A DNA stretch of 38,432 nt from Candidatus Aphodocola excrementigallinarum (lineage in GTDB: Bacteria > Bacillota_I > Bacilli_A > RF39 > UBA660), in NCBI GenBank assembly GCA_018714855.1, contig DVMT01000028.1, positions 1 to 38,432 on the forward strand. Reading direction: 5' to 3'. The notes below the pieces were generated by a model, which was not told the DNA's origin, ran no database searches, and saw nothing but the letters and a program-made list of their open reading frames with translations. Positions 20,128 to 25,027 of this stretch are shown here, piece after piece (within the stretch, counting starts at the first letter, position 1; each line of letters begins with the position of its first letter). The position numbers and the translations under genes are program-made.

Positions 20128-20156
20128 TTGACAATATTTGTAAAATATTGTATTTT
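20128..20156 (+). promoter_or_regulatory. Promoter of the FolE2-QNG1 operon
   Basis: TTGACA, 17 nt, TATTTT. It predicts a transcript starting near 20163, about 10 nt before the attenuator hairpins. The rest of 19984-20127 is AT-rich with nothing I can assign. Confidence 0.75.
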
Positions 20157-20171
20157 AAAAACAATTAATCA

Positions 20172-20251
20172 ATTTGGGTATTGTGTTTGCCCAAATGGTG
20201 GCAGTATTTTCATGGTGGCAAACACTTTTAAGTGTTTTTGCCACCTTTTTT
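20172..20251 (+). promoter_or_regulatory. Transcription attenuator (antiterminator/terminator leader)
   Basis: Three alternative pairings are visible. Hairpin 1 pairs ATTTGGG (20172-20178) with CCCAAAT (20190-20196). The terminator pairs GGTGGCAAACACTT (20214-20227) with AAGTGTT-TT-GCCACC (20230-20245), followed by six T's. GTGTTTGCC (20183-20191), in the loop and right arm of hairpin 1, is perfectly complementary to GGCAAACAC (20217-20225) in the terminator's left arm, so antiterminator and hairpin 1 plus terminator exclude each other. A 9-nt direct repeat ATGGTGGCA (20195 and 20212) adds a second partner for TGCCACC. The signal is unknown; I do not recognise a known riboswitch. Confidence 0.8.
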
Positions 20252-20275
20252 ATTGCCTTAATATTAGGAGGTTAA
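20195..20275 (+). CDS. Possible 26-codon leader peptide with tandem Trp codons
   Basis: An ATG at 20195 opens a 26-residue hydrophobic frame (MVAVFSWWQTLL...ALILGG) that runs through the terminator and stops one base before the folE2 ATG. It contains two adjacent Trp codons. There is no Shine-Dalgarno sequence before it, and its ATG sits in a stem, so it may be chance. If translated, ribosomes would melt the terminator. Confidence 0.2.
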   Translation: MVAVFSWWQTLLSVFATFFIALILGG

Positions 20276-20276
20276 A

Positions 20277-21047
20277 ATGGAAGATGTTCATAACAATATA
20301 GAAAAAAGAAATGTGTCGATAGAAAGAGTAGGAATAAATAATTTTAGATTACCTTTTTGCTATAGGTCGTTATATGATTATAATACTATTGCATCAATAA
20401 TTTCTGGGGTATGTGTTGGCTGTAGTGAGAAAGGGGCACATTTAAGTAGAATTATTGAGGTATTAAATGAGTTGTTAGCTAACAAAATTCTTAAATTAGA
20501 AGATTTTTCTACGATAATAAAAGCTCTAGCTGATAGGATTGAAAAAAAAGATATAGAGTTAACCGTTAGTTTTCCAACATTAATAGAAACAAAATCTCCT
20601 ATTACTAATAAGATAAGCTATATTGATTCTGAGGTGGAGGTGAAAGTAATGTTAAAAAATAATACAATTTATAAAGATGTATCTTTAAAAATGAATGGTG
20701 CAATGTGTTGCCCTAGTTCTAAAAAAATTTCTAAATATGGGGCTCACAGTCAAAGATGTTTATTAAAATCTACAATAGTTGATGCAAAAGATGATTTATT
20801 GATAGAAGATGTAGCTAATATTTTGCAAAAATGCTTTAGTGCACCCGTATTTTCGGTTGTTAAAAGAGAAGATGAAAAATATATGACTGAAACTGCTTAT
20901 GAAAATCCTAAATTTTCTGAGGACTTAATTAGAGATGTATTACTTAATTTAAAAAGAAAATATAAGGATTCAGAAATAATTGCAGAAATGGAAAATTATG
21001 AATCTATACATTCGCATAATGTATATGCAAAGGGATATTTGAAATGA
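20277..21047 (+). CDS. folE2: GTP cyclohydrolase IB (FolE2/MptA family)
   Basis: A 256-residue protein with FolE2 motifs: GCSEKGAHLSRIIEVL (family KGTHMSR), CCPSSKKISKYGAHSQR (family CPCSKEISxYGAHNQR, containing the catalytic/metal Cys), and an ETAYENPKFSEDLIRD segment. FolE2 turns GTP into 7,8-dihydroneopterin triphosphate, the entry to folate and to queuosine/7-deazapurines, using a metal other than the zinc of FolE. It is the first gene after the attenuator, with an AGGAGG ribosome site. Its TGA stop overlaps the ATG of the next gene (ATGA). Neighbouring folK/folP or queC-F genes are absent, which argues for a special pathway. Confidence 0.88.
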   Translation: MEDVHNNIEKRNVSIERVGINNFRLPFCYRSLYDYNTIASIISGVCVGCSEKGAHLSRIIEVLNELLANKILKLEDFSTIIKALADRIEKKDIELTVSFPTLIETKSPITNKISYIDSEVEVKVMLKNNTIYKDVSLKMNGAMCCPSSKKISKYGAHSQRCLLKSTIVDAKDDLLIEDVANILQKCFSAPVFSVVKREDEKYMTETAYENPKFSEDLIRDVLLNLKRKYKDSEIIAEMENYESIHSHNVYAKGYLK

Positions 21048-21916
21048 TAAAGGTTTATGTAAAAGATTTAATTGATATGTTAAAAATCAAAGGCGATCAA
21101 TTGAATATTATAGTTTGTAAAGCGCTTATTGCTGCTATGATAAACAAAAAAATTGCATATAAAGATAGGCAAATGATAATAATTGATGAAAATGTATTTA
21201 AAACACTATGGAATATATATTTAAGTAGTCTTTGTTATTTTGATATTAATTATAATAGAAAAACAGATTTCAAACTATATTTTGAATATATCATTGATTC
21301 ATTAATGAATAATAAACAATTAACGTTTTTATCTCTTTTTTGCCCAGGGTATACTAAAGACGGGTATAAAGATAGGCTGGGTAATACAACAAAATGGAAA
21401 TTGGCAGAATTAAAAAATATCAACTCTTTTTTTCAAGAAAACGAGGTAGATAATTTAATTTATTGTTATTATTCAGATGTGTTTCTAGAAAATACAGATT
21501 ATGAAGTAAATTCAAAATGGATGATTCAAATGGATTATAACAGATATTTGTTTCACGAAGAGGCTAAAAAATATTTTGATGAAATATATGTAAAAAATGC
21601 TTCTGATTTAGAAATATTTTCGGAGGAAAAAAGTATTAGTGGGTACATTGATGATAATCTTGTCAAGAAAGTAAATCCTAGAACGTATAAATCTTTTAAA
21701 AAGTTTAATGAAAAGTTTTATAATAAATTAGGTTTTTCAAAGGAACAAATGTTATTTAGAAATGATAGGTTAATTACAATGTATAAATTGTTATCTGATT
21801 ATATTAATTCTCAGAGTAATACAATTTTTTTGCCAATGGAAAACATGTATGAGAGAGAAAATATATTTTCAGAAAATAATACATGTACAATGTATTTGAA
21901 ATTAAAAAGGAGATGA
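21044..21916 (+). CDS. Unrecognised operon protein with FCPGY motif
   Basis: A 290-residue soluble protein translationally coupled to folE2 by ATGA overlap and ending 3 nt before the cyclohydrolase-II-like gene, so certainly part of the operon. No family recognised. The best-defined block is LTFLSLFCPGYTKDGYKDRLGNTTKWKLAELKNINSF, then DNLIYCYYSDVFLEN: a strand-loop-helix-strand layout ending in an SDVF segment. This faintly recalls the IsnA/Dit1 isonitrile-synthase plan, but the resemblance is too weak to assign. No signal peptide or membrane segment. It may be the defining enzyme of this pathway. Confidence 0.7.
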   Translation: MIKVYVKDLIDMLKIKGDQLNIIVCKALIAAMINKKIAYKDRQMIIIDENVFKTLWNIYLSSLCYFDINYNRKTDFKLYFEYIIDSLMNNKQLTFLSLFCPGYTKDGYKDRLGNTTKWKLAELKNINSFFQENEVDNLIYCYYSDVFLENTDYEVNSKWMIQMDYNRYLFHEEAKKYFDEIYVKNASDLEIFSEEKSISGYIDDNLVKKVNPRTYKSFKKFNEKFYNKLGFSKEQMLFRNDRLITMYKLLSDYINSQSNTIFLPMENMYERENIFSENNTCTMYLKLKRR

Positions 21917-21919
21917 AAC

Positions 21920-23446
21920 ATGAAAGATAAATATTCATTTTATTTGCAAAATAACAATAAACTATTTAATAGTGATATTCTTGTTGTTTGTTATGAAGCA
22001 GATGAGTCTGAGATAAGTGAATACAACTTAACATCAAAATCCATAATATTATTTATAAAAAGTGAAGAAATAAATTTTGCCACTTTGAATAAAGATGTTA
22101 ATTATAGAAATATTATTAAAAAAGCATTTGATAAAAAAGATGTTTTTTTAAGACTTCAATGTGAGTGTTTGTTGGGGATGTATGGAGACTCACATTGTGA
22201 TTGTGAGCAACAAAGATTAGATAGTATAAAACTCATTTCAAAACATAATGGTATATATATTCACATTCCACAAGAAGCTCAGGGCTGGGGATTGCCATAT
22301 AAAATTAAAGAACTTGAATTACAAGTATCTGGAAGAACCCAAGATGGGAAGTATATTGGCATTAAAAATAGAGATGATGCTCAAAAATTATTATTAGGTA
22401 ATGAGAAATTTCAGGATAATAGAAATTATAAAATTATATCTGATATTTTAAAGAATTTAGGTTTGAAAAAAAATAAATTTATATTATTAACTGATAGTCA
22501 AAGAAAACTAGATGATATAAAAACCACAGGATTAAATGTTATTGGTTATAAAGAATATAATAGTAATTCAATAAATGTCAATAATTTGTCTGAGTATTTA
22601 ATAAAAATATTAAATGGTACGCATGCTTTTTCGCAAGAAGTATTGGATACAATTCTATCGTTGATTATTGATAGACAATATAACGAACGAACGTTATCTA
22701 CATTAGTAAGTATTGTAAATAAGATAAAATATGATAAAAATTATTATCTTGATAATGTTTCAAAAAAGAAAATATTAAATGCTTATAATACAATAATATG
22801 TGGTGATGAGAAAGAGTATTATATTGGTGATGATAACACGATTAAGATACAAAATAATTTTTGTTGTAGAGTTAATACATCTATATTTAAAGTTATCAAA
22901 AATGTTTTAGGGAAAAATATTTTTGATAGAATTTCTTTAGAAAAACTATATTATTTTCAGAATAAATATAGTAATGAAATAGTTAAAATAAGAACAAGTA
23001 AAATTTTAGATATTAGAGATGATAATTCTGAGTTTTTCAAAGGACAACATCATGCAGAACAAAGAATAATTAACAAAGATAAAAATAAAATAATTCAAAA
23101 AGAAGTAACTGTTTCAAGTTTAAAATCATATTTTGAAAATCCTAATTATGACTATGTAAAGAGAGTTGAAATGATAACAATTATATCTGAATTTGATATG
23201 CCAGGTGTTAAGGTCTTTATAAAAAGAATACCAACAATTGATAATAGGGTTTTGGATGTATTTGGTAAGAAGAAAGATATAAAAGAATTTTTAGATAAAA
23301 TAATAAAGTCAAATCCCAAGGTCTTATTAAATAAAGTTACAGACACAAGATTTGAGGATGAGAATTTTACCGATTATAATTTGAGATTTGCAGATATTAA
23401 TGCTATAATCGAAGAAGAATTAAAGATATTTAATATATTAAAATAG
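21920..23446 (+). CDS. GTP cyclohydrolase II-like protein with extra C-terminal domain
   Basis: A 508-residue protein, against about 200 for RibA alone. Residues about 70-215 are a GTP cyclohydrolase II domain. The zinc cysteines C83, C93 and C95 are present (ECLLGMYGDSHCDC; the loop is one residue shorter than in E. coli). QEAQGWGLPYKIKELELQ stands for QEGRGIGLxNKIRAYxLQ. FQDNRNY keeps the catalytic Asp and Arg of ADERDF (D166, R168), and LLTDSQRKLDDI stands for LLTNNPKK. Two familiar residues differ: Arg of GRG is Gln121, and the Tyr of RAYSLQ is Leu132. The C-terminal 290 residues are a separate region I do not recognise. GTP ring opening is likely, but the product may differ from that of riboflavin synthesis; no ribB/D/E/H genes are near. 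Confidence 0.8.
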   Translation: MKDKYSFYLQNNNKLFNSDILVVCYEADESEISEYNLTSKSIILFIKSEEINFATLNKDVNYRNIIKKAFDKKDVFLRLQCECLLGMYGDSHCDCEQQRLDSIKLISKHNGIYIHIPQEAQGWGLPYKIKELELQVSGRTQDGKYIGIKNRDDAQKLLLGNEKFQDNRNYKIISDILKNLGLKKNKFILLTDSQRKLDDIKTTGLNVIGYKEYNSNSINVNNLSEYLIKILNGTHAFSQEVLDTILSLIIDRQYNERTLSTLVSIVNKIKYDKNYYLDNVSKKKILNAYNTIICGDEKEYYIGDDNTIKIQNNFCCRVNTSIFKVIKNVLGKNIFDRISLEKLYYFQNKYSNEIVKIRTSKILDIRDDNSEFFKGQHHAEQRIINKDKNKIIQKEVTVSSLKSYFENPNYDYVKRVEMITIISEFDMPGVKVFIKRIPTIDNRVLDVFGKKKDIKEFLDKIIKSNPKVLLNKVTDTRFEDENFTDYNLRFADINAIIEEELKIFNILK

Positions 23447-23459
23447 AAAGAGGTGTATT

Positions 23460-24089
23460 ATGGAATACGAAGTAAGATTTTATTATCCAATTAAAGAATA
23501 TAATAATAAAATAAATCTATTAAATAAGATCTCAACTTTAAAATGTAATGGAAGAAATTATGAAAAAACATCTCAATTTAATCATCCTAGCCCTAAATAC
23601 AATTTCTATTCTAAAAAAATAGATGGGAGATTTAGAATTAGAATAACTAAGGGAAAAAATATTTCTAGGTGTATGCTAAGTTGGAAACGAAGATTACCAA
23701 TAACGCTTGAGTCTTCAATTAACAAGGAGGAAGAAATTGAGCTTACAATAAAACCTTCTGAATATGATAATTTAATGTTTATAGTCAAAAATATATTACA
23801 TATGGAGGAAGTAGAAAGCTATGAAAGGTTTAGAACTACTTTCACTAATTCAGAGGTTGAAATAGCATTGGATGAATATCCGTTTGGTTTAGCTTTGGAA
23901 ATAGAGGCCAAAACCTTTGATAATAAAGCTGAAGAAGTCGTTGATAAATACGTAGAACTTCTTAAATTGGATTATAAAGATTCATATAGACTTTCTTGGG
24001 ATGATAAATACGAAGAATTATGTAAAGAGCAAGGCAAAGAGAAGTTTAAGCATGTATTATTTGACTGTGATATGCCGGAGATAAAATAA
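23460..24089 (+). CDS. CYTH domain protein (triphosphate tunnel metalloenzyme)
   Basis: A 209-residue protein with a CYTH/TTM pattern. It opens with the alternating acidic start MEYEVRFYY (family ExExK; Lys is Arg here), followed by FRIRITKGKN, CMLSWKRRLP, KEEEIELTI and YERFRTTFT. It ends with EIALDEYPFGLALEIEAK, whose E-x-D and E-I-E acids line the tunnel. TTM enzymes bind triphosphates (inorganic PPPi, ThTP, ATP to cAMP) with Mg or Mn. In this operon an attractive substrate is a triphosphate made by FolE2, but that is inference. It starts 13 nt after the cyclohydrolase-like gene and ends 2 nt before the next gene. Confidence 0.8.
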   Translation: MEYEVRFYYPIKEYNNKINLLNKISTLKCNGRNYEKTSQFNHPSPKYNFYSKKIDGRFRIRITKGKNISRCMLSWKRRLPITLESSINKEEEIELTIKPSEYDNLMFIVKNILHMEEVESYERFRTTFTNSEVEIALDEYPFGLALEIEAKTFDNKAEEVVDKYVELLKLDYKDSYRLSWDDKYEELCKEQGKEKFKHVLFDCDMPEIK

Positions 24090-24091
24090 TC

Positions 24092-25027
24092 ATGAATCAA
24101 TTAAAAAATATAGAATTTGTTGCTAATAATAGTAAATATGTATGTATAAACCAGGAAAAAATAAAAAAGCTTGCATCTGAATTAGTTATAGATTGTCCTA
24201 AACATTTACAAAAGGGTTTATCAAATAAGCTAACGGAAAATGAAATGGTTGTTTTCATGCTCTTATGTGAATCAATTAATTTCTGTTTTTGGCCTGAAAA
24301 AAAGTGGAAGATAAAATACAAGAATAAAATTTATTATGGTTCTGTTGCTATGTTTTTATCAATGCAAAGAGCTATTGAGGAGAACAGTCATATGTTTGAT
24401 ATAGAAAACTTAAAAAAAATAACATATGATAAATTTTGTAGTATTTTTAAAACATTAGACAAACCTATTTCTCTTTTAAAAGAACGATATAAAAATTTTA
24501 GAGAAGTATCTTTAACATTACAAAAAAAGGGTAATAAGTTTTTTGATGAAATATATCGCATTAATTCTGATGTTGAATTATTAAATTATATTGTTAAAAC
24601 TTTTCCATGCTTTAATGATGTAAGCTGTTTTAAACTAAGGAAAATTAGATTTTATAAAAGAGCTACTTTGTTAGTAAGAGATTATTATACTCTTGTACCT
24701 AAAATTAGAGAGAATATAAAGAGTATATCTAATTTAACTGCGTGCGCTGATTATGTTGTTCCAAAGCTTTTAAGAGGGTTTGGAATTTTAGAATATAATA
24801 GTTCTCTTTCAAAAAAAGTGGATTCAAAAATACTACTAAGGCATAACAGTAGAATGGAAATAGAAATAAGAGCTAATATGATAATTGCTGTAGAAATGCT
24901 AAGGAAAGAACTCTTAAAAAATGATAAAGTCATTGATTCTGTCATTCTAGATAGTATTTTATGGCAATATGGAGAACACATTGGAAAATCATCTTCTCAT
25001 CATAGAACTATAACTATATTTTATTAG
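24092..25027 (+). CDS. Queuosine salvage (DUF2419/QNG1) family N-glycosidase
   Basis: A 311-residue protein matching the QNG1/DUF2419 queuosine 5'-phosphate nucleosidase family along its length. Matching blocks are SINFCFWPEKKWKI near 80, SVAMFLSMQRAIEE, ITYDKFCSIF, LTACADYVVPKLLRGFGILEY near 210, RMEIEIRANMIIAVEML, and the C-terminal LDSILWQYGEHIGKSSSHHRTITIFY. QNG1 releases the 7-deazaguanine base queuine from queuosine 5'-phosphate. No tgt or queuine transporter is next to it; instead it ends an operon with FolE2 and a RibA-like protein, so its substrate may be a nucleotide made by the operon. It starts 2 nt after the CYTH gene. Its end overlaps the converging yolD-like gene by 14 bp. Confidence 0.85.
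   Translation: MNQLKNIEFVANNSKYVCINQEKIKKLASELVIDCPKHLQKGLSNKLTENEMVVFMLLCESINFCFWPEKKWKIKYKNKIYYGSVAMFLSMQRAIEENSHMFDIENLKKITYDKFCSIFKTLDKPISLLKERYKNFREVSLTLQKKGNKFFDEIYRINSDVELLNYIVKTFPCFNDVSCFKLRKIRFYKRATLLVRDYYTLVPKIRENIKSISNLTACADYVVPKLLRGFGILEYNSSLSKKVDSKILLRHNSRMEIEIRANMIIAVEMLRKELLKNDKVIDSVILDSILWQYGEHIGKSSSHHRTITIFY

Follow-up and report, generated by a model that had tools for sequence, protein, structure and literature searches.

Organisation of the leader and its operon

The window, i.e. the whole stretch of 38,432 nucleotides that was analysed, is contig C6 of a 1.18-Mb assembly. On its forward strand, a sigma70-like promoter graded as strong is located at positions 20128-20156, with the -35 box TTGACA at 20128-20133, a 17-nt spacer and the -10 box TATTTT at 20151-20156. 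Transcription is predicted to start at about 20163. The promoter is followed by a short leader with three mutually exclusive pairings. The first is hairpin 1 (20172-20196; core GGGUA/UGCCC, outer pairs AUUU/AAAU), a putative anti-antiterminator that can be extended to 20168-20199. The second is the antiterminator, in which the strand GTGTTTGCC (20183-20191) pairs with GGCAAACAC (20217-20225). The third is an intrinsic terminator (20214-20251), with the stem GGTGGCAAACAC/GTGTTTTTGCCACC at 20214-20245 and a U tract at 20246-20251; its 5' arm contains the second strand of the antiterminator. The linker CAAATGGTGGCAGTATTTTCAT (20192-20213) separates GTGTTTGCC from the terminator. An earlier note on this DNA had described hairpin 1, the antiterminator pairing of 9 bp and a terminator with six T's, all of which proved correct to the base. 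It had also reported a 9-nt direct repeat with a period of 17 nt; this repeat (ATGGTGGCA, at 20195 and 20212) is indeed present, but it is kept only within the genus.

The fold of the window leader had a z-score of about -4 relative to shuffled sequences, mostly due to the terminator, and the energy of hairpin 1 alone was unremarkable (z = -0.9). The leader contains a perfect 9-bp complement to the terminator arm within 52 nt upstream, which was equalled in 4 of 1000 dinucleotide shuffles. The consensus terminator scanner overlooked the main terminator of the window because of its bulge. Downstream of the terminator lies the ribosome-binding site AGGAGG of the first gene (20266-20271). The sole promoter candidate between the terminator and this gene was a weak consensus match (9/12) at 20238-20265, inside the terminator.

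The operon behind the leader comprises five genes, all on the forward strand. The first encodes a folE2-type GTP cyclohydrolase (20277-21047; PF02649, E = 1e-58). It is followed by genes for a 290-aa protein without an assigned family (21044-21916), which is conserved beside folE2 in four other genomes, a 508-aa protein with a RibA-like GTP cyclohydrolase II domain (21920-23446; PF00925), a 209-aa CYTH-like protein (23460-24089), assigned through its homologue in genome G030 that matches PF01928, and a queuosine-salvage family protein (24092-25027; PF10343, E = 9e-61). The 290-aa protein carries the motif FCPGYT..GYK...GN and has no relative in Pfam, NCBIfam or PDB; its predicted structure was too poor for use (mean pLDDT 34). 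Its gene adjoins folE2 in every copy seen, with the queuosine-salvage gene nearby in the intact ones, and is accompanied either by the RibA-like and CYTH proteins or by a methyltransferase and nucleotide-kinase module. PADLOC gave no defence assignment for the four proteins of the window operon that were scanned.

Recurrence of the leader

In total, we found 16 copies of the leader in 15 genomes of nine genera, all belonging to a single bacterial family. A DNA search with the window leader in 18 genomes of its genus yielded six further copies, which are 78-94% identical to it and spread over five other genomes. A covariance model added one copy in the window's genus (G014) and one in another genus (G018). 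Behind both lie the same putative peptide precursor (..ISFGNKIGLGYDGCGTHTHK) and a radical-SAM maturase, and orthologues of this maturase in other genera led to seven diverged leaders (G225, G092, G296, G255, G105, G459 and G487) that keep the same layout as the window leader. Among the weak matches of the covariance model in other genera only G018 was kept, as those that we read looked like gene-internal stretches or unrelated terminators. Four extra matches from a pattern search apparently arose by chance, mostly within genes. Viral contigs and plasmids contained no copy of the leader, and the leader has no description in Rfam or in the literature searched.

The eight copies in the window's genus precede eight unrelated operons, and the eight copies in other genera all precede the same radical-SAM peptide cluster of the RiPP type. 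This cluster, which also encodes HelD, a recycling factor of RNA polymerase, likewise lies behind one of the genus copies (G014). The other operons in the genus include a radical-SAM/glycosyltransferase/QueC-like operon (G013; glycosyltransferase read from the sequence), a HAD-aldolase operon (G004), a short-chain-dehydrogenase/cupin/HAD operon (G012; cupin read from the sequence), and, in genome G003, a YcaO and radical-SAM peptide cluster (contig C1) and a guanylate-kinase-like/methyltransferase operon (contig C25). The operon in G002 starts with an open reading frame for a small peptide ending in KGDGWK, and its maturase best fits the KxxxW cyclic-peptide family, though below the family cut-off. 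The G013 operon (L029:724-4028), with its QueC-like protein, also encodes a 114-aa membrane protein, which we presume to resemble a queuosine-precursor transporter.

Conservation of the genus copies begins at the -35 box and does not extend beyond the U tract. All genus copies and the copy in G018 are positioned directly before the first gene of their operon. The promoter ends 1-6 nt upstream of the leader in 15 of the 16 copies and overlaps the leader start by one base in G018. This placement argues against a transcript that starts downstream of 20191, which according to the earlier note would have spoken against an attenuator. The window promoter is also conserved in our leader alignment A1.

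The radical-SAM peptide cluster was found at 11 loci, nine of which have the leader; the locus in G205 lacks a terminator, and that in G062 stops at the contig edge. The cluster (L087:3790-9483 in G018; also L088, L106, L107, L108, L110, L113 and L114) contains genes for a 44-aa precursor ending in GNKIGLGYDGCGTHTHK, a radical-SAM/SPASM maturase, a 212-aa protein, HelD, a C39-like peptidase and a HAD hydrolase. Its HelD matches the NCBIfam model HelD_BACSU with 510 bits (cut-off 419). HelD was present at all eight loci with enough sequence, i.e. the source locus L087 and seven matches, one of them only partial; these eight include the G205 locus. Its membership of the cluster suggests that the peptide product acts on RNA polymerase. 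In nearly all copies the precursor gene is flanked by inverted repeats, ACACAACATAGG ... CCTATGTTGTGT (L087, L088, L099-L103, L104, L111 and L112), which vary together (GCATAACATAGG / CCTATGTTATGC in G014) and may represent a long-range stem or a DNA element.

Some of the cargo operons look mobile, since at L032:2903-5324 and L011:7209-9714 they adjoin apparent large serine recombinases. Read from the sequence, these recombinases, which come from two different genera, seem to split a gene for a D,D-carboxypeptidase. Three genomes of the window's genus (L030, L031 and L088) have the leader directly after a resident gene of one type, for a 7TM histidine-kinase-like protein, and the operons that follow the leader differ, which gives the impression of cargo exchanged at a single site. 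A recombination site or invertible promoter at the level of DNA is not favoured as an explanation of the leader itself, because its orientation, its spacing to promoter and gene, the U tract and the three-way complementarity point to a leader RNA.

Conservation of the pairings

Across the homologous leaders, 92.9-93.5% of the alignment cells of the nine antiterminator pairs were paired. Five of the nine pairs had changed on both sides (G-C to A-U or U-A, U-A to A-U, and C-G to U-A), and sliding the partner strand reduced the paired cells to at most 53%. As the 5' arm of the terminator has a second partner in the 3' arm, each of these changes effectively involves three strands. Hence, the comparison of homologous leaders for covariation that the earlier note had suggested came out in favour of the antiterminator. 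For these pair counts, we placed the diverged leaders manually, with GUUUGCC as the anchor, and joined the helix segments by a fixed spacer. Shuffled sequences matched the antiterminator in 0-1 of 500 cases on most measures and in 5-8 of 500 on the number of pair types, values that overstate the significance and are no probabilities, because the leaders are related and hand-anchored. The antiterminator of G255 measures only 7 bp, and 101 of 1000 shuffles were as good.

As a control, we scored 46 unrelated terminators from the same and related DNA for upstream complements, and none of them reached the score of the leaders (best 15.5). Of the leaders that this terminator finder also accepted, ten scored at least 18, and an eleventh (G296), whose helix the finder had shortened, scored 15.

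Hairpin 1 was paired in about 81% of the cells across 14 leaders, without covariation above that of shuffled sequences, and was weak or rearranged in G002, G255, G225 and G003a. The linker, including GGTGGCAGTATTTTC, hardly varies among most genus copies and shows no conservation beyond the genus. The genera have no unpaired core in common, and their linkers share only short AT-rich words.

Proposed mechanism

We interpret the segment as a promoter-proximal transcription attenuator, one copy of a recurrent family of leader RNAs that would control specialised-metabolite operons, and give this reading a probability of roughly 0.78. A promoter lies upstream of an intrinsic terminator before the first gene, and an antiterminator that excludes this terminator is conserved by covariation. 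This architecture, its conserved promoter and its recurrence before unrelated operons are evident from the sequences themselves. Our results thereby bear out the proposal of the earlier note that a complete attenuator without a recognised sensor precedes folE2: strict and permissive Rfam scans gave no match at the leader. The first operon type under control of the leader family was probably the radical-SAM peptide cluster.

In the proposed mechanism, RNA polymerase would start at about 20163 and hairpin 1 would be made first. As the 5' arm of the terminator emerges, GTGTTTGCC could quit hairpin 1 and pair with GGCAAACAC to form the antiterminator. The operon would be read if this pairing persists, whereas capture of the 5' arm by the 3' arm GTGTTTTTGCCACC would form the terminator and end transcription at about 20251. 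The switch could be turned on by stabilisation of the antiterminator, by weakening of hairpin 1, or by a delay of the polymerase in the brief period before the 3' arm emerges.

Predicted energies are consistent with this sequence of events. At the stage of transcription where only the 5' arm of the terminator has emerged, the antiterminator was more stable than hairpin 1 alone in all 16 leaders. In the full leader, the terminator together with hairpin 1 was lower in energy than the antiterminator in 13 of the 16 copies, and the minimum-energy state of the remaining three (G018, G225 and G092) contained the antiterminator. In the window, the antiterminator was the minimum-energy state only for RNA ends at 20226-20233, i.e. 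during about 8 nt of transcription. For the window and the majority of copies, the state with the completed terminator and hairpin 1 is thus predicted to be more stable than the antiterminator, so that the default of the switch should be off. A kinetic, default-off attenuator is thus the natural reading, in which we infer both the off state and the direction of control. As effector, a general trans factor or the speed of transcription would fit better than a metabolite from the folE2 pathway.

Alternative explanations

A small-molecule riboswitch would make hairpin 1 and the linker a mini-aptamer, for instance for preQ1, queuine, a pterin or another metabolite, with the ligand stabilising hairpin 1 and thereby causing termination. 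The order of 5' hairpin, antiterminator and terminator resembles that of attenuating riboswitches, aptamers of the preQ1-I type are as small as hairpin 1, the window operon contains both folE2 and a queuosine-salvage gene, and within the genus the linker GGTGGCAGTATTTTC hardly varies. Yet no riboswitch model matched in the Rfam scan even at E = 10, the absence of an unpaired core kept across genera leaves no recognisable ligand pocket, and hairpin 1 does not covary. Moreover, the operons behind the leader include peptide clusters as well as operons of the sugar type and have no metabolite in common, and such diversity makes a shared one improbable. The leader also does not follow folE2. The folE2 type of the window is rare (5 of 386 genomes of the family), and the leader is absent from the folE2 operons of G030, G217, G254 and G272, which are built differently or broken, so that the leader is no fixed part of the folE2 system; nor was folE2 seen among the genes of the operons behind the other 15 leaders. 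The ligands of this pathway that the earlier note had implied (preQ1, queuine, GTP, pterin and tetrahydrofolate) therefore find no support. Because the leader also precedes peptide and other specialised-metabolite operons, it bears little resemblance to a sensor of folate or queuosine, and we consider a riboswitch unlikely. As a side observation, G217 is apparently the same sequence as the record SIG205 (L005:8001-9133), in which folE2 and the 290-aa gene are both broken; judged by these lesions, that lineage is losing the operon.

Alternatively, the leader might be a ligand-free gauge of the progress of RNA polymerase, in which a slow or inhibited polymerase lets the antiterminator form and thereby opens the operon. 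It would have evolved with the HelD-carrying peptide cluster, whose product would act on the polymerase and whose HelD would provide self-protection, and would later have been copied to other specialised-metabolite operons in the window's genus. HelD frees RNA polymerase from rifampicin, and helD of B. subtilis is controlled by a sensor of polymerase inhibition (PMC12802891). Together with the HelD of the cluster, this control makes sensing of polymerase speed the most interesting option, although as a complete scenario we regard it as speculative and improbable.

The segment could also be a constitutive small RNA gene, or a simple insulating terminator between promoter and operon, without any regulation. 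Transcription would yield a terminated RNA of about 90 nt anyway, and since the antiterminator strand resembles the 3' arm, it could have arisen by partial duplication. However, with a promoter upstream of the terminator in 15 of the 16 copies and the first gene close behind, the operon would need read-through. Compensatory changes have kept the antiterminator strand in step with the terminator arm, and comparable upstream complements are missing from unrelated terminators. We therefore judge an unregulated element to be quite improbable.

Processive antitermination by a specialised NusG paralogue of the LoaP or RfaH type, recruited to hairpin 1, has a precedent in the same setting, i.e. natural-product operons on which LoaP acts through a small hairpin that precedes the terminator in the leader (PMC12691694). 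However, the 18 genomes of the genus, with all carriers of the leader among them, encode exactly one NusG each, and the LoaP mechanism needs no covarying antiterminator that competes with the terminator. Control by LoaP or RfaH is thus ruled out in the genus and has very little probability overall, and another protein family could fill this role. Ribosome-mediated attenuation through a leader peptide (ATG GTG GCA GTA TTT TCA TGG TGG ..., 20195-20275), whose 26-codon open frame with tandem TGG codons for Trp spans the window terminator, is rejected as equally implausible, because there is no conserved short reading frame with a ribosome-binding site: the ATG at 20195 lacks one, most genus copies are out of frame owing to differences in loop length, and no corresponding ATG exists in G002, G014, G018, G225 and G105. 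A T-box model did not match at the leader either, and a stem I specifier was not found.

Comparison with known regulatory systems

The leader lacks the defining features of the Rfam riboswitches, including preQ1, of T-boxes, of LoaP/RfaH control within the genus and of leader-peptide attenuation, and is best read as a new family of cis-acting attenuators that would control specialised-metabolite operons. It would represent an undescribed family of regulatory RNA in gene-poor, apparently uncultured bacteria with small genomes. One type of switch over several unrelated peptide and small-molecule operons could serve as a sequence tag for finding more of them. The lack of a NusG-type antiterminator in the genus raises the question which common signal opens these operons, and the HelD-bearing clusters suggest a link to inhibition of RNA polymerase.

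By its promoter-terminator-antiterminator anatomy, the leader would belong to the three-state attenuators in the broad sense. Attenuators of the Pyr type and of the purine-riboswitch type likewise have three mutually exclusive pairings in the same order and with the same logic, in a leader directly behind the promoter. In contrast to these, the present leader has a very small sensor (about 50 nt), matches no Rfam model and serves many unrelated operons. The preQ1-I riboswitch (RF00522) has a hairpin of similar size near the transcript start, and the window operon contains a queuosine-related gene downstream. The leader, however, has neither a match to this model nor a conserved pocket, and most of its other copies precede operons without queuosine genes. 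With about 25 to 50 nt in its loop, the antiterminator is unlike a compact RAT hairpin of the BglG/LicT type.

The LoaP-dependent leaders of the difficidin and macrolactin operons, antibiotic operons of Bacillus velezensis, also combine a small hairpin with an intrinsic terminator before specialised-metabolite genes (PMC12691694), and in both cases one regulator could serve several operons. By contrast, the window's genus has no NusG paralogue, and in the present leaders the terminator competes with an antiterminator formed by RNA pairing. Finally, the rifampicin-sensing dual promoter of helD in B. subtilis is a cis element that senses polymerase inhibition and controls helD (PMC12802891), and the peptide clusters described here encode HelD. 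The B. subtilis element consists of convergent promoters, whereas the present leader is an attenuator that may, hypothetically, sense the same inhibition.
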